From the NCBI GenBank assembly GCA_024304885.1, contig JALJOM010000008.1:62001-126000 (forward strand): a stretch of DNA of 64,000 nt. Reading direction: 5' to 3'. The position numbers were made by a program, and so were the translations under genes. This DNA is from Beijerinckiaceae bacterium (lineage in GTDB: Bacteria > Pseudomonadota > Alphaproteobacteria > Rhizobiales > Beijerinckiaceae). This document shows positions 50,413 through 55,993 of this stretch, in pieces. How positions within the stretch are numbered: position 1 is the first letter of the stretch; the number at the start of each line of letters is the position of its first letter. The notes beneath the pieces are model-generated. The model ran no database searches and had not been told where the DNA came from. It saw nothing but the letters and a program-made list of their open reading frames with translations.

Positions 50413-51528
50413 TCAACCCGGCACGGGGGCCGTCACGGCCGTCTCGGGTCTCGTCTCGCGGGTGTGTGGGGCGAAAGGCCCGACGCCTCGGCGCGAGCTG
50501 CGCGCGAGCCCGTGCTCGGTCTTGTGCCAATGGAACGGGCGCAAGAACAGGTCGAAAAGCGCCACCCAGGCCGCGACCGACATCAAGAGATTGTAGGGGA
50601 CCAGCAAGGCGAGATAGGGCCAAAGGCCAAGCAGGTCGCGGCGCCGCATGCCGAGAAGCGCGAGCCATACGAGCGAGCCGGTCCCGAACACCGCGACCGA
50701 GACCCACAAGGTCGCGCTGACGAGCTCGAAGCTCGTGACCGGCGCCGGCACGCCGTGCGCGAGAAGCCCGTAGGCTGTCAGGGCGGCGAAGACCGGCCAG
50801 AGCGGCGGCACGACGACGAGCGCCGTCATCATCATGACGAGCACGGTGGTCTGGCGAAGGCCGACCTCGCGCAGGAGCCGACGCGGGTCGCGGCTCAAGG
50901 TGAGGCAGGTCTGCATCCAGCCCTTCGACCAGCGTCGGCGCTGCGTCAGCCAGGCCGTCAGGCGGGCTGGGGCTTCCTCGTGGGTGCTGGAGGCCAGCGT
51001 CGCGGTGCGATAGCCGAATCGCGCGAGCCGCATGCCGAGATCGGCGTCCTCCGTCACGTTCCAGGCATCCCAGCCGCCGACCTCGCGGAGCACCCCGGTG
51101 CGAAAATGGTTCGACGAGCCGCCGAGCGGGATGGGCAGGCGCAAGCCGGCCGTGCCGTGGTGGAGGACATCGAAGAGGATCGCATATTCGATGGCGAAGA
51201 GCTTGGTCAGCCAGGAATCGTCGATATTGTCGATGGCGAGGCTCGCTTGCAGGCAGGCGAGCCGGCGCGGCGCATGGAGGAAACGCTCCGCGGCCTCGCG
51301 CAGCTGACCCGGTGCCGGAACGTCCTCGGCATCGAAGACGGCGACGAGCTCGCCGCGCAGGAGAGGCAAAGCCACGTTGAGCGCGCGGGGCTTGGTCCGT
51401 GGAAAGCCCGGCGGCGCAACGATGATCTCGTAGGCTGCAGAGAGAGGCAAGGCCTCGAGCGCGTCGCGCGTCGCGACATCGTCGGCCTCGAGGACGAGCT
51501 TGATGTCGAGCTTGCCGCGCGGATAGTC
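50413..51528 (-). pseudogene. Processive family-2 glycosyltransferase, 3' part, split by transposon
   Basis: C-terminal portion of a membrane glycosyltransferase. It includes the start of the catalytic domain (KLDIKLVLEADDVATRDALE), DxD-like FDAEDVP, TEDADLGMRL, the processive motif QRRRWSKGW, and four or so C-terminal membrane helices. It joins in frame to the 5' part at 54939-55822 once the inserted element and one 8-base duplication are removed. An internal ATG at 51450 could make a 345-residue fragment lacking the first catalytic motif, probably inactive. Confidence 0.88.
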
Positions 51529-51530
51529 GC

Positions 51531-51552
51531 GGCATTATGTAGGAAGCTCACC
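51531..51552 (+). repeat. Left terminal inverted repeat
   Basis: Perfect 22-base match in inverse orientation to the right repeat; begins GGCATTATGTAGGAAG. Confidence 0.95.
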
Positions 51553-51638
51553 AGGTAATTTTACCGAATTGGATAAATCGATAACAACGCGCGTTTTATA
51601 GCTTGCCAGCACATGCGGAATCAGCCAATCTCTTGACT

Positions 51639-52145
51639 ATGGCATCTGATGAATTGGGAAGTCATGATTTCGAAGCGGCTATCCAGAACCTTGCGGGGCA
51701 GGCTCGTGAGGCGCTGAAAGCCGCCTATGATGCGGGCTATGCGGCCGGACGCCGATCAATGGCTGATCAATTGCAATGCCGCCTTGAGAACGTCATCGCA
51801 GAAGTTGCTGGCGGCAAGGTAGCCACGCTCCAGATTTCAACGAGGCCGCAGCCTACTGTCATCGTCGAATCAGCAAACGTTGACGCGGCCCAGCCTCGCA
51901 AACACGCATGGTCTGACCGGGAGAAGCGAGCCGAACGCGGCTCTGTGCGGCCTGTTGTTATTGAGTGGTTGTCGAATAGCAACAATGGCGGCAAGCCCTT
52001 CGATATCGCAAAAGATACAGGGCTTAACGAAAACACGATTCGCGGGATGCTCAATACGCTCGGGAAAGAGGGCCTAGCCGAGAAGCGTGGCGAGCTATGG
52101 TTCAAAAAAGTGTCGTCAGTATCCGTGAGCGAGGCGCTGATATAA
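51639..52145 (+). CDS. Transposon cargo protein with winged-helix-like C-terminus
   Basis: Protein of 168 residues, not recognised as a named family. The N-terminal third is helical (FEAAIQNLAGQAREALKAAY). A basic stretch (KHAWSDREKRAERG) leads to a likely winged helix at residues 110-160: VVIEWLSNSNNGGKPFDIAK, DTGLNENTIRGMLNTLGKEG and LAEKRGELWFKK. A DNA-binding regulator is likely. Codon use is less GC-rich than in flanking genes. A 10-base-pair hairpin follows the stop. It reads in the same direction as the RNA region downstream. Confidence 0.6.
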   Translation: MASDELGSHDFEAAIQNLAGQAREALKAAYDAGYAAGRRSMADQLQCRLENVIAEVAGGKVATLQISTRPQPTVIVESANVDAAQPRKHAWSDREKRAERGSVRPVVIEWLSNSNNGGKPFDIAKDTGLNENTIRGMLNTLGKEGLAEKRGELWFKKVSSVSVSEALI

Positions 52146-52147
52146 CG

Positions 52148-52177
52148 AAGGCTCCGAAGCTTTCGCCTCGGAGCCTT
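52148..52177 (+). terminator. 10-bp hairpin after the first cargo gene
   Basis: AAGGCTCCGA pairs perfectly with TCGGAGCCTT around a ten-base loop, directly after the stop. The downstream run is GAAGAATT rather than T-rich, so it may be a processing signal instead of a full terminator. Confidence 0.5.
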
Positions 52178-52185
52178 GAAGAATT

Positions 52186-52254
52186 GGGGGTGCACAGTGC
52201 AGGGCAGGGATTTCCAGCCATCGCCCGGCGGGTGCAAGTCCCGCTACCTCCACC
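52186..52254 (+). ncRNA. tRNA-like fold (acceptor plus T-arm)
   Basis: GGGGGTG (52186-52192) can pair over seven positions with TACCTCC (52245-52251), using two G-T wobbles. The T-arm next to it has a 5-bp GCGGG/CCCGC stem and a 7-base TGCAAGT loop, which differs from the tRNA consensus only at position 55. The T-stem is contiguous with the acceptor strand as in tRNA, and ACC follows. The 35 bases between contain a single GGGC...GCCC hairpin, so D and anticodon arms are not both present. It may be a tmRNA-like domain, a decayed tRNA, or an integration relic. Confidence 0.4.
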
Positions 52255-52428
52255 TAGTCGCCGCTAGAGGGCCAGTCTTGGCCGATCAACCCTCTGGCAT
52301 TCCATGAGACACCCAGCCGCTCACGGGTAAGAATAGTGGGCGGAGAGTTAGGAGTACCCCATGTGGCAAGCCGCCAAAAAATAGCACCAAGGGCTTAAAG
52401 CTCTCGTGCCCTGAGATCTTTGGCTCGG

Positions 52429-52463
52429 CCGCCGTGCTAACCAACAGCACGGCGGTTTCCTTT
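52429..52463 (+). terminator. Intrinsic terminator of the candidate RNA
   Basis: CCGCCGTGCT pairs with AGCACGGCGG around a seven-base loop, followed by TTTCCTTT. It is oriented for plus-strand transcription, away from the minus-strand XRE gene that ends at 52490. Confidence 0.85.
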
Positions 52464-52489
52464 CATATAAACAAGTCGTCTGAATCTGT

Positions 52490-52723
52490 CTAGTGCGCGT
52501 CGACCTTCTCAGACGGCGCGTAGGTAATGCCACATGTCTCGACGAAGACGATCCCCTGCGCCTCCAGGGCAGCTCGAACTGCCTCTCGGTTGTGAACAAC
52601 CGGAGTCCGCTTGCCGCTCTCGAAATCCTTCACTGTCGAAAGCGCGACGCGCGCGGCGGTGGCAAGATCCGCTTGCGTCCAGTTTAGCCACCCTCGGGCA
52701 GCCCTGCATTGCTCAGGCGTCAT
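52490..52723 (-). CDS. XRE-family regulator
   Basis: Compact helix-turn-helix repressor of 77 residues. MTPEQCRAARGWLNWTQADLA and TAARVALSTVKDFESGKRTP form the HTH, followed by VHNREAVRAALEAQGIVFVE, the end typical of small phage-type XRE regulators. It is convergent to the candidate RNA and divergent from the transposase, so it could repress the transposase promoter in the 110 bases between them. That is inference. Confidence 0.82.
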   Translation of the reverse strand: MTPEQCRAARGWLNWTQADLATAARVALSTVKDFESGKRTPVVHNREAVRAALEAQGIVFVETCGITYAPSEKVDAH

Positions 52724-52769
52724 CCCGAAAGGCTAACATCGTCCAAAAAATTTCGCAAGGTCAGCCCTT

Positions 52770-52799
52770 TTGGTTGACTGCGCCTATTTCGTCTATTAT
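52770..52799 (+). promoter_or_regulatory. Candidate transposase promoter
   Basis: TTGGTT, an 18-base spacer, then TATTAT within an AT-rich stretch before the transposase. If used, transcription would begin near 52806, which favours the GTG at 52832 as start codon over the ATG at 52802. Confidence 0.4.
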
Positions 52800-52831
52800 A
52801 GATGAGGTCATCCAAAACGGATGGCCGAACC

Positions 52832-53785
52832 GTGTCGCAGCACTTCCTTCTCTCAAAGACTGCAAGGAGCTTGAGCCTCGCTCGAGTTGCTCGCATGTCC
52901 GACGAGGAAGCTCACGACGCCTTCCGCATGATCCGCTGGCACGAGACCAAAGGCGAGCCGGTTTGCCCGCGCTGCCAATGCGCCACGGTCTATAAGTACG
53001 AGACGCGCAAGCTCTGGAAGTGCAAGGCGTGCTCGCACCAATTCTCGGTCACGTCCGGGACGATCTTCGCCTCTCGCAAGATGCCGATCCGCGACATTCT
53101 CTTGGCCGTGGCGATCTTCGTGAACGGCGCCAAGGGCCATAGCGCCTTGCAGCTCTCCCGCGACCTCGATTGCCAGTACAAGACCGCGTTTGTGCTCGCT
53201 CACAAGATCCGCGAAGCCCTCGCGGCCGAGACGAAAGACGAAACCGTCTCGGGCGAGGTCGAAATCGACGGCGCCTATTTCGGCGGGCACGTCAAGCCGG
53301 CCAACTGGAAAGAGAACCGCCGCGATCGGCGCCTCGCGAAGAACCAGAACGGCAAGCGCCAAGTTGTCGTCATCATGCGCGAGCGCGATGGGATCACGCT
53401 TCCATTCGTCTTCAAGAGCGAGGCCCAGTCAGTTCAGACGATTGCCCGCCACGTCGAGGCCGGCTCGGTCATTCATGCCGACGAAGCGGCGGGTTGGGAT
53501 ATCCTCGCCACGCGCTACCTCACGAAGCGGATCAATCACGAAGAATGCTATTCGGACGGCGAGGCCTGCACCAACCAGGCCGAGTCGTTCTTCTCGCGCT
53601 TGCGCCGGGCCGAGATCGGGACGCATCACCATATCTCGGGTCGCTACCTTGCCGCCTATGCCTCGGAGATGGCTTGGCGCGAGGACAATCGCCGCGTCTC
53701 AAATGGTGAGCTTTATCTCATTGCCGCGAATGCCGCGCTTAAGCATCCGGTTTCGCGGCAATGGAAGGGATATTGGCAGCGATAA
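52832..53785 (+). CDS. IS1595-family transposase
   Basis: DDE-type transposase of 317 residues. It starts MSQHFLLSKTARSLSLARVA, has an N-terminal zinc ribbon (CPRCQCATVYKYETRKLWKC, then KACSHQF), HTH-like TSGTIFASRKMPIRDILLA, and the ISXO2-type catalytic domain: EVEIDGAYFGGHVKP, IHADEAAGWD and TNQAESFFSRLRRAEIG. The GTG start is preferred because a promoter -10 lies just before the ATG at 52802. It is intact and in full length, so the element may still be active. Confidence 0.92.
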   Translation: MSQHFLLSKTARSLSLARVARMSDEEAHDAFRMIRWHETKGEPVCPRCQCATVYKYETRKLWKCKACSHQFSVTSGTIFASRKMPIRDILLAVAIFVNGAKGHSALQLSRDLDCQYKTAFVLAHKIREALAAETKDETVSGEVEIDGAYFGGHVKPANWKENRRDRRLAKNQNGKRQVVVIMRERDGITLPFVFKSEAQSVQTIARHVEAGSVIHADEAAGWDILATRYLTKRINHEECYSDGEACTNQAESFFSRLRRAEIGTHHHISGRYLAAYASEMAWREDNRRVSNGELYLIAANAALKHPVSRQWKGYWQR

Positions 53786-53928
53786 CCAGGGTCAGCTTAA
53801 GCATGAAATTGCCATAATCCGAGCTGGTGACGTGCGATTAAGCACCGCGCAAGAAATTTCGGCCATCTTGCACCCATAGTGGATATTGACGCGTTATGGC
53901 GTTATGCTCTTTAACATTGGTGTCAAAG

Positions 53929-54228
53929 ATGGCCTCCCGGACCAATGAAATGGGCTCGACAAACAAAACCCCATTCAAAATCACGGTCTTATTTGAGACT
54001 CGCGAGGATGGCGGCCTGCGCGCCTACAGCGAGGATCTGCCCGGATTCGTGCTTTCTCATGCGGATTCCGATGCTGTTATGGCCGACATTGAGCCAAGCC
54101 TAGAGTGCATTCTTTCGGCGATGCTCGGCTATCCCGTTCGCGCCACATTGCTGCCGAGTGCTGCCGAAGTGTTCCAGCACCGCGTCGATCCGCTCACCAA
54201 AGACTATCTAGCCTCAATCGCAGCCTAA
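53929..54228 (+). CDS. HicB-like antitoxin
   Basis: Small protein of 99 residues (80 to 92 if later ATGs are used) with the HicB partial RNase H fold: FKITVLFETREDGGLRAYSE, DLPGFVLSHADSDAVMADIE. The C-terminal DNA-binding domain of many HicB proteins is short or absent. Its stop lies three bases before the next gene, so they form a two-gene operon. In hicAB loci the toxin usually comes first; here the order is reversed. ATG 53950 is an alternative start. Confidence 0.7.
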   Translation: MASRTNEMGSTNKTPFKITVLFETREDGGLRAYSEDLPGFVLSHADSDAVMADIEPSLECILSAMLGYPVRATLLPSAAEVFQHRVDPLTKDYLASIAA

Positions 54229-54231
54229 CCG

Positions 54232-54450
54232 GTGATCACTCGCTTCCTCTCGCGTCCCGAGTGGGAAGCGAAATTGCTACGCTGGGGCTGTGCGCCCTTG
54301 AATGGCAAAGGCAAGCTTAATACCGCAGAGTGGTGGAAAAGGCCTGGTGGGCTCCCTTTTACTGTGCCGATTGAGCATGATGGACGCTGCGACTTTTGGG
54401 CAATTCAACGGTTAGCTAATGACTTCGGGATTCCGCCTGATAAGCATTAA
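54232..54450 (+). CDS. Small HicA-position protein
   Basis: Protein of 72 residues next to the HicB-like gene, GTG start. The C-terminal part PGGLPFTVPIEHDGRCDFWA, then IQRLANDFGIP, follows the HicA strand-helix pattern, but the catalytic His of HicA toxins (GSHH) is not visible. It may be an atypical or dead toxin, or an unrelated partner. It overlaps the convergent coiled-coil gene by four bases. Confidence 0.5.
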   Translation: MITRFLSRPEWEAKLLRWGCAPLNGKGKLNTAEWWKRPGGLPFTVPIEHDGRCDFWAIQRLANDFGIPPDKH

Positions 54451-54872
54451 CCTAACTTTTTGCTCCACACCCTCACCCCGCCGCGCCGCCCTGCATCCCA
54501 GACCTGCCCGCGCCTCTCTTGCCTAGCCATGATGTTCACGATCGACAGCGCGAGCGCCTTCCTGAGCACTCTGTCGTCGCCGTCGAGGCCCTTGGCGATT
54601 GCGACGGCTCTCGCCAGCTCACGCGTGTCCAATGGCCGTCCAGCGGCTTCTAGGGCTTCCTTACAAAGCCGGAACAGCTCATTGCGCTTGAAGAGCCTGG
54701 ACAACCCCATATGAGGCCGAAGCTCGCCGTCTTGCTGAAAGAGCACGAGAGTCGCATTGATCGTTGCCAGATCCCGGCGGGCGTTCTCGATCTCGCGCTC
54801 ATAGGCTGCGATGCGAGACTCGATCTCGTTTCGCTTGTTCGTGAGAGTCGTGACGATTTGCGGTTCGGCCAT
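54447..54872 (-). CDS. Coiled-coil cargo protein
   Basis: Protein of 141 residues, not assigned to a named family. Residues 10-45 are a clear coiled coil (NKRNEIESRIAAYEREIENA, RRDLATINATLVLF). A helical domain follows (LFRLCKEALEAAGRPLDTRE, LARAVAIAKGLDGDD) and a basic end (RRGQVWDAGRRGGVRVWSKK). It lies just inside the right terminal repeat and faces the HicB-type pair. Its role is unknown. Confidence 0.65.
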   Translation of the reverse strand: MAEPQIVTTLTNKRNEIESRIAAYEREIENARRDLATINATLVLFQQDGELRPHMGLSRLFKRNELFRLCKEALEAAGRPLDTRELARAVAIAKGLDGDDRVLRKALALSIVNIMARQERRGQVWDAGRRGGVRVWSKKLG

Positions 54873-54916
54873 GCCGCATTGTGGCGGTTTGGCCGGCCGA
54901 AGCCCATATCGGGATA

Positions 54917-54938
54917 GGTGAGCTTCCTACATAATGCC
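54917..54938 (-). repeat. Right terminal inverted repeat
   Basis: Reverse complement of the left repeat, 22 of 22 bases, followed by target duplication GGATAGTC. Confidence 0.95.
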
Positions 54939-55822
54939 GGATAGTCGATCGCGTCGAGCGCCGCCGCGAGGTGCGCGGCAACGGGAGCCTCGCGATGCAG
55001 GGCGACCACGATCGAATAGGTCGGCAACCTGTGGTCGGCGACCGCGCGCCATCGCGCCGGCGAGCCGTCCTCGAGGCTGGCGGCCCCGGCGAAGAGGCGC
55101 AAGAGAATCGAGGGGAGAAACAAGCAGCTCATGCCGAACGAGAAGCTCGCTTGTGCGATCTCGGGCGCCAGGCCGAGCGCGAGCGCCGCCGCGACGGCCG
55201 TCCCGAGCCCCATGCAGGCCTGGGCGTCGGTCAGGCCCGACCGCGCCGAAAGGCTCGCGTCGCGCGCGCTGAGCAGGGTGCTCGCGTCGCGGGCGATCTT
55301 CACGCTCGCGAGGGCTCGGACGCATCGCGACAGGTGCGAAGGGGTTGTGATCGCGAGGCTCAGCGGCGACAGCCGGCCGAACCTCGCCTTGCGGATCAAC
55401 GCGACGACGGCGGCGCTGCGCGGCGCAGCGAGCCATTCTTGCCGATGAGTCCCGCCGAGCGGAGCGATCCCCGCGCGAATCGCGTTCGGATAGCGCGTGC
55501 CGGGGCCGAGCACGATGTCGCCGTCCAGGAACGCGACCCCGAGATGGCTCGCCAAGGCACGATAGAAAAAGGATTCCGCCACCGCGCCGCTCGCCAGGAG
55601 TGCTATATCGACGCTGACGCCCTGAGCCTGCGCCTGATCCACGGCGCCGAACAAGATCGCATGGTCGATCCCGAAGGCCGCGAGGAAGCCGACCTCGAGC
55701 GGGAGCGTCGGCCCGAGGCCCGTCCGGCCGGGCCGAAGCGCGGGAGGTGGCGAAAATGCCGAAGCTCGAGCTCCCGGCGCAGGCCGAAGGGCCTCCGGCC
55801 AGCCGGCTGGTACGACGTTCAT
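54939..55822 (-). pseudogene. Processive family-2 glycosyltransferase, 5' part, split by transposon
   Basis: N-terminal portion, start ATG 55822 (a TTG at 55861 is possible). It contains the leader domain common to large membrane glycosyltransferases (FFYRALASHLGVAFLDGDIV ... SVKIARDAST), a membrane helix region (AQASFSFGMSCLFLPSILLR), and the first strand of the catalytic domain (YSIVVALHREAPVAAHLAAA, LDAIDYP). After removal of the element the frame continues PRGKLDIKLVLEADD. The reconstructed protein would be about 663 residues. Confidence 0.88.
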
Positions 55823-55993
55823 GGGCGCAGGCCAAGGTGGAAAACCCGCGCAATTTAGCAAATATGTCTGTTAAACGGTATCAATTTTCGTCATTGATCC
55901 AATGACATTGCTCAATCATAGACAGAAGCGTGAAGCTTCAGGCTGCGCCCGCGGCGACGCGCTGCGCGCCCGAGCCCCGGCGGAGCAGGCGGC

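Follow-up and report, generated by a model that had tools for sequence, protein, structure and literature searches.

What is an RNA shaped like a tRNA doing inside an insertion sequence? The question is raised by positions 52178-52463 of the window, i.e., the whole 64,000-nt stretch of a Beijerinckiaceae contig that was analyzed. A preliminary description had placed there a structured RNA with a tRNA-like fold, carried by an IS1595 transposon, and had considered a mobile tmRNA-like RNA, a decoy tRNA, and a regulatory RNA as possible identities.

The transposon at 51530-54939 and its RNA

The location inside an IS1595 transposon was borne out by the transposase, by perfect 23-bp terminal inverted repeats at 51530-51552 and 54917-54939 (100% identity in an inverted-repeat search), and by an 8-bp duplication at the flanks. 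With an ISXO2-like DDE transposase that has a zinc ribbon, inverted ends, and this duplication, the element has the defining features of the IS1595 family, and it appears to have split a minus-strand glycosyltransferase gene (50413-51529 plus 54948-55861, with the Pfam match on the left part). Its gene order is 180-aa ORF, hairpin, tRNA-like RNA (TLD), XRE gene (minus), transposase, two small ORFs, and right-end ORF (minus):

51522-51529 and 54940-54947, no strand: left and right copies of the 8-bp target duplication GATAGTCG (sequence inspection)
51530-54939, no strand: IS1595-family transposable element of 3,410 bp (3.4 kb) with terminal inverted repeats, the same end type as in sister elements
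51603-52145, plus strand: ORF of 180 aa, coiled-coil (by eye) and winged HTH (HTH_IclR, E = 1.1e-4), just 5′ of the tRNA-like RNA
52148-52177, plus strand: strong hairpin (folding, dG -19.8) between the 180-aa ORF and the tRNA-like RNA
52186-52254, plus strand: tRNA-like RNA (descriptor, covariation, folding)
52192-52200, plus strand: D arm of 3 bp, GCA-CAG-TGC, with loop A18 G19 (free fold; D stems covary across copies)
52202-52226, plus strand: bulged anticodon-like arm GGGC...GCCC with an 8-nt loop at 52210-52217, ATTTCCAG, anticodon register UCC (folding, covariation)
52256-52463, plus strand: 3′ extension with further hairpins, holding a seven-codon frame at 52361-52384 (folding, comparison)
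52490-52723, minus strand: XRE-type HTH gene (Pfam HTH_31, E = 1.9e-6), convergent with the tRNA-like RNA
52802-53785, plus strand: IS1595-family transposase (Pfam DDE_Tnp_IS1595, E = 5.7e-43; NF033547, E = 1.1e-44)
53896-54450, plus strand: two small passenger ORFs of 110 and 72 aa (family search, 0 matches)
54447-54872, minus strand: right-end ORF of 141 aa (ORF list); many sister elements have a look-alike ORF (by eye) at that end

Two genes do flank the RNA, as the preliminary description had it, but they are not plain cargo, being the coiled-coil/winged-HTH ORF upstream and the convergent XRE gene downstream. The right-end ORFs of the window and of many sister elements (ca. 140 to 155 aa) have a coiled coil and an HTH by eye, carry no family name, and may encode an accessory transposition protein.

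Within the RNA, the acceptor strand GGGGGTG (52186-52192) pairs at 7/7 positions with TACCTCC (52245-52251), G3-U70 included, and is contiguous with a T arm of 5 bp and 7 nt (GCGGG-TGCAAGT-CCCGC, 52228-52244), exactly the pairing first noticed at this locus. The 3′ end is ACC, with A73 at 52252 and CC at 52253-52254. Unconstrained folding of the window copy gave a cloverleaf with acceptor, D, anticodon, and T arms, in which the D arm has only ca. 3 bp and its first G is also the G of the last acceptor pair (the seventh acceptor G is lent to the D arm in the free fold). A canonical 5-bp anticodon stem with a 7-nt loop and U33 was not found; the stem is longer and bulged, the loop mostly of 8 nt, and residue 33 variable (by eye). 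The folding energy of the 70-nt core was no better than its composition would predict (z = -0.31, with 72 of 200 shuffles folding as well), and a 321-nt stretch gave z = -2.69. Since the energy of the core is unremarkable, the case for the RNA rests on its relatives, that is, on recurrence and covariation.

Such a structured-RNA family was flagged here by neither ARAGORN nor Rfam. ARAGORN made no call at any of the 27 copies discussed below, window included, and the Rfam tRNA model found 44 tRNAs in this genome, the window locus not among them. The covariance-model search proposed earlier, run at the locus with Rfam, matched neither tRNA nor tmRNA; there was no tRNA match inside the element at E values up to 10, and Rfam 15 over 51500-54950 with the same limit gave only two matches, both far under the cut-offs and elsewhere in the element.

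As for the flanks, a hairpin of -14 kcal/mol or lower was predicted in 21 of 29 upstream 60-mers (27 copies plus two Leu-like tRNAs, see below) versus 30% of 120 random 60-mers, and could stop transcription into the RNA. A scan with an E. coli-type consensus found no plus-strand promoter-like site near the RNA. At 52463, where a strong intrinsic terminator had been proposed, folding does predict a hairpin, but a terminator scan of 51530-52850 yielded no terminator. The downstream seven-codon frame (ATG TGG CAA GCC GCC AAA AAA TAG) likewise exists, but it is not kept in relatives: L018 and L019 have no ATG, and L022 diverges after four codons, the matching stretch being able to form a hairpin (by eye). 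Of the three relatives compared for the 3′ extension, L022 has it in recognizable form and L018 and L019 in part. In the last two, both Bradyrhizobium elements, repeated short hairpins with CTTCCA loops lie just 3′ of the TLD (L018:4071-4150, L019:4042-4140).

Relatives of the RNA and their conserved parts

Related transposases defined 80 loci (the best 80 of 234, 59 to 86% identity). A first descriptor, which asked for the acceptor, T arm, G3-U70, and A73, detected a TLD in 16 of them, and a covariance model (R1) added L028, making 17 of 80. The RNA lies upstream of the transposase and on its strand in 16 of these 17, the exception being L051 (opposite strand, downstream). Ends and 8-bp duplications were mapped in 63 of the 80 loci, with L035 mapped separately, and in all 14 mapped elements that carry a TLD, plus the window, it was located between the ends; L023, L025, and L028 could not be mapped. 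A strict acceptor and T-arm descriptor gave 19 matches in 255,903 bp inside the 63 mapped elements versus 4 in 354,212 bp outside (binomial p = 1.4e-4), and two of these four are tRNA genes also called by ARAGORN.

Genome searches added nine copies (L095, L096, L097, L098, L111, L125, L126, L128, and L129), eight of them blind; L111 was taken from weak matches for its adjoining transposase and is therefore not a blind find. For L095 and L111 the surrounding element was mapped and is of the window's type; L125 lies in an element with weaker ends (15/18 bases) and a distant IS1595 transposase, and L126 between other perfect ends, unlike the window type (GGTGCTGTCCTAATTAGG, 8-bp duplication). Distant IS1595 transposases also occur within about 1 kb of L097 and L129. 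The 3-kb stretches of L096 and L098 contain an XRE gene but no transposase, and that of L096 contains a right-end ORF as well; genome G143 yielded no related transposase, and the pairs of TLD and XRE gene (L185 for L096, L186 for L098) are possibly nonautonomous derivatives. L128, which has no context evidence, counts among the blind copies without an adjoining transposase. An IS1595-family transposase adjoins 23 of the 27 copies, 18 of which (window included) were found through the transposase; among the blind copies the figure is 4 of 8 (L095, L097, L125, and L129).

Model R2, at E values up to 1e-5, was positive in 8 of 385 genomes of the class and in 5 of 398 of the phylum, all already known, and with strict filters all five positive genomes of the phylum sample belong to the window's class. 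Among the class matches, L130 was dropped as an ordinary tRNA-Ala (by eye), and L127 is the same RNA as L028. The R1 matches L100 and L101, the latter within a tRNA cluster, were dropped as tRNA-Ala-like (by eye). The R1 tally of 316/397 is not a family count, since this model gives an ordinary tRNA-Ala about 38 bits (by eye), and the second strong match of G247 and most weak matches lie outside the inspected set. DNA searches with a 344-nt region gave no matches in plasmids or phages and, among 397 genomes of the order, its own copy and 11 short matches of 20 to 33 bp; the 81-nt core had no plasmid match, and the upstream ORF used as search anchor led only to its own genome (1/385) and to none in plasmids.

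The identities of TLD and transposase were weakly linked (Spearman 0.20, 153 pairs, 18 elements). The window TLD shares 82 to 85% identity with two Bradyrhizobium copies at a transposase identity of 76%, and 51 to 63% with Methylocapsa/Methylocella copies at a transposase identity of 82 to 86%. These values point to a module that is likely exchanged or fast-changing.

In an alignment of 23 copies that was fitted to the structure through model R1 (A5), 95.1% of the cells were paired and 16 of 20 pairs were compensatory, i.e., with changes on both sides. The covariation score was 0.613 versus 0.153 in shuffles (0/500) and at most 0.170 for slid versions, and a MAFFT alignment of 10 copies (A2) gave 11 compensatory pairs of 17. 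Covarying helices in homologues were what the preliminary description had proposed to look for, and the acceptor and T-arm pairing that it relied on is conserved as well (100% and 97.4% of cells paired). Four arms folded in 14 of 17 copies, freely or with acceptor and T arm imposed; in L035, L051, and L058 (3/17) the cloverleaf was not the predicted fold even with both imposed. D-loop and T-loop bases covary in the manner of a tRNA elbow: positions 18/55 read A/G in 5 copies and G/(C or U) in the other 18, and positions 19/56 read G/C in 22 and A/U in 1. D-loop AG goes with GC at T-loop positions 55-56 (5 copies), GG with CC (10) or UC (7), and GA with UU (1), in a table whose D-loop letters were entered by eye and whose p-value is inflated by related copies. 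Comparison of the copies shows that the shape was kept by selection while the sequence changed. The tRNA-like fold inside the element, a compact cloverleaf at 52186-52254 that recurs and covaries in relatives, is hence upheld, and both structure and association with the elements are, at the level of sequence, well supported.

Together, G3-U70 and A73 form the signature of alanyl-tRNA synthetase (AlaRS), and the conserved parts of the TLD are those read by EF-Tu and processing enzymes. In the 23 aligned copies, G1-C72, G2-C71, and G3-U70 are invariant, and 4-69, 5-68, 6-67, and 7-66 vary, the first three with two to four pair types each. G3-U70 and A73 were found in 26 of 27 copies, a count favored by the first descriptor and by models R1 and R2. 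Given this bias, a scan without the G3-U70 requirement is the fairer test: its 19 matches inside elements comprised 12 TLDs, 12/12 with G3-U70, and seven other tRNA-like matches, 0/7 (sorted by eye). Beyond A73, the gene itself supplies CC in 22 of 27 copies and the full CCA in 7 of 27 (counted by eye). From the identity set G3-U70 plus A73 we infer an alanine-accepting RNA that would be charged in the host. According to one published account, AlaRS relies mainly on G3-U70 (PMC6451123).

The anticodon-like loop and the cargo of sister elements

In the tRNA register with A37 (our own reading), the loop gives UCC in 13 of 27 copies and UGC in six:

UCC: window, L016, L017, L018, L019, L020, L022, L029, L035, L051, L095, L096, L129
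UGC: L015, L025, L053, L059, L098, L111
Other: ACC in L023; CCC or UCC in L125
Neither NCC nor UGC (six of 27): L028, L058, L075, L097, L126, L128

L129 is the one copy without G3-U70. Its acceptor (G1-C72, C2-G71, U73), which we take to be Gly-type by identity rules, goes with a UUUCCA (UCC) loop, and this combination points to a loop that acts as an anticodon. Decoding is nevertheless uncertain in view of the long bulged stem, the mostly 8-nt loop, and the variable residue 33, which is G in L018 and L019 and A in L020, L029, and L095; the folds predicted for L053 and L059 close the loop in a different register. The host genome has tRNA-Gly with UCC, CCC, and GCC, so the TLD is not needed for decoding. 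Two indirect codon-level tests lent no support to miscoding. No recoded transposase positions (GGA/GGG where relatives mostly have Ala) were found, the three positions looked at having Gly in 66 to 70 of 71 others. GGA was rare in the transposases of UCC elements (3/198 versus 86/1,599, p = 0.014), a depletion that is not specific, since ACA was underrepresented to the same degree (p = 0.012) and CTA was overrepresented (p = 0.003). Whether the loop could pair with the terminal repeats was weighed by eye, and the idea was dropped.

Several sister elements carry other tRNA-like genes:

L046:5582-5669: Leu-like tRNA (by eye), anticodon UUA, inside mapped ends, directly 3′ of the IS1595 transposase
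L037:5582-5668: near copy of the former, directly 3′ of the IS1595 transposase, element not mapped
L022: second tRNA-like gene inside mapped ends, assigned to Arg by ARAGORN and resembling Thr by eye; D region swollen
L044: tRNA-Thr with an odd T loop, inside mapped ends matching at 15/20
L052: tRNA-Gly GCC, inside mapped ends
L056: tRNA-Asp, inside mapped ends
L041 and L042: Glu-like by eye, inside mapped ends, no ARAGORN call
L069 and L183 (the latter beside the L126 TLD): tRNA-like genes inside mapped ends, with four-base anticodon calls, i.e., 8-nt loops

By their anticodon, the UUA tRNAs of L046 and L037 would read the stop codon UAA; a search for UAA read-through in L046 gave no convincing target. 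At L183:2688-2838, the TLD is followed at once by the second tRNA-like gene with its 8-nt anticodon loop, between ends GGTGCTGTCCTAATTAGG with the 8-bp duplication CGGGGGCG. On the transposase tree, the labels TLD (18 rows) and tRNA (7 rows) need 4 changes, with 56 rows uncounted. A sweeping interpretation, which we consider unlikely, is that IS1595 transposons maintain miscoding tRNAs, with alanine identity joined to Gly (UCC), Arg-like (UCU), and Val-like (UAC) anticodons and, in sister elements, a Leu-like ochre (UUA) tRNA and Gln/Glu-like tRNAs whose anticodon loop has 8 nt; as a set they would form a mobile code-altering system. If true, such a system could yield protein variants, gated expression, or an addiction device.

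Possible roles and known systems

We favor, at a little under even chances, the reading that the element carries a small noncanonical alanine-accepting tRNA, probably used in host translation. Host enzymes would trim the RNA (RNase P, 3′ processing, and CCA addition), host AlaRS would charge it with alanine, and EF-Tu could carry the alanylated product, which might then, with less assurance, enter host translation as an extra tRNA, UCC-loop copies placing alanine at GGA/GGG codons. Because conservation falls on the parts that AlaRS, EF-Tu, and processing enzymes read, an alanylated RNA is the most likely product and translation its most likely use. A selected alanine-marked tRNA mimic in many IS elements would, if true, mean that a transposon draws on the aminoacylation and translation machinery of its host, and UCC copies, if alanine charged and decoding, would be natural mobile missense tRNAs.

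Rather unlikely, in our estimate, is an alanylated or merely tRNA-shaped decoy that binds AlaRS, EF-Tu, RNase P, or the CCA-adding enzyme without decoding and either titrates its partner or provides a place for processing where the upstream gene gives way to the transposase region. It would agree with the acceptor and T arm being the most regular long helices next to an irregular anticodon-like arm, and with the strong hairpin usually found just 5′ of the RNA. However, the loop is limited to a small set of sequences, and the Gly-type acceptor with a UCC loop in L129 would be puzzling for a loop that does nothing; nor do the copies downstream of the transposase (L051, L097, L125, and L129) fit an insulator.

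Defense-like cargo bears on a third possibility. In a chosen subset of 10 passenger proteins of IS1595 elements, three had strong defense-library matches, those of L016 and L029 weak ones, and five none:

L015:5685-6671: BstA (3.4e-121)
L019:5669-6337: PD-T4-5-like (PD-T4-5, 7e-15)
L020:5942-7711: DNA methyltransferase (MTase_II, 1.5e-60)

These matches, and the other tRNA-like genes of sister elements, would suit a counter-defense or addiction RNA that stands in for, or imitates, a tRNA targeted by a toxin or an anticodon nuclease. We hold this to be distinctly improbable, given that the cargo varies between elements while the RNA stays and that nothing found points to cargo acting on tRNA-Ala or tRNA-Gly. 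An RNA that regulates the XRE gene or the transposase, as considered at the outset and here taken to include antisense action, is very doubtful: in 11 of 15 listed TLD elements (window included) the RNA reads towards a convergent HTH ORF 15 to 305 nt away, but strand and place differ in L051, L097, L125, and L129, the invariant G3-U70 is left unexplained, and the evidence in favor is positional. Damaged-looking tRNAs in some sister elements (the second copy in L022, L044, and L052) bring to mind captured host tRNA genes decaying as neutral passengers, a highly improbable account since the main family is under selection, as the covariation and unchanging G3-U70 of 23 diverse copies show. The suggested mobile tmRNA-like tagging RNA, with which the TLD has G3-U70 and a reduced D arm in common, can practically be discarded because the seven-codon frame is not conserved and lies 3′ of a cloverleaf closed by an 8-nt loop, with no coding loop between the halves of the tRNA-like domain, no Rfam tmRNA match, and an alpha-tmRNA of the genome's own elsewhere (C3).

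The alanine-accepting tRNA that we favor shares G3-U70, A73, the T arm, and the elbow with bacterial tRNA-Ala (UGC), as well as the UGC loop in the six copies listed above. It differs from it in a D arm of 3 to 4 bp, almost no linker or variable loop, a longer bulged anticodon-like stem with a loop mostly of 8 nt, and in escaping ARAGORN (27 copies) and the Rfam tRNA model (window copy). The tRNA-like domain of tmRNA (RF00023, RF01849) has an alanine acceptor, a reduced D arm, and a long helix replacing the anticodon arm, and the TLD is like it in all three; its helix, in contrast, is closed by an 8-nt loop with no reading frame inside, and the window gave no Rfam match. Chimeric or mistranslating tRNAs with G3-U70, which combine alanine identity with a non-alanine anticodon, have been described in engineered systems and, in Streptomyces, in systems that mistranslate deliberately, whereas the TLDs occur naturally as a family on insertion sequences and have a body of unusual build, and for them miscoding is a proposal here. 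The tRNA genes of ICEs, phages, and plasmids are mobile and mostly canonical, unlike this compact tRNA-like RNA inside elements of 2 to 7.6 kb.

Among the titles and abstract openings on IS1595 passengers and tRNA-like RNAs that were covered, mostly from outside the subscription journals, none describes the TLD. Insertion sequences are usually seen as transposase plus cargo, and those of the IS200/IS605 group encode omegaRNA. IS elements with a structured noncoding RNA also include IS110/IS1111 with its seekRNA or bridge RNA (PMC11187229). A structured RNA within an insertion sequence is what the TLD elements share with both groups; the transposase here is of the DDE type with 8-bp duplications. 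That the TLD kept its shape through changes of sequence suggests that IS1595-family elements in alphaproteobacteria use a tRNA mimic of their own.
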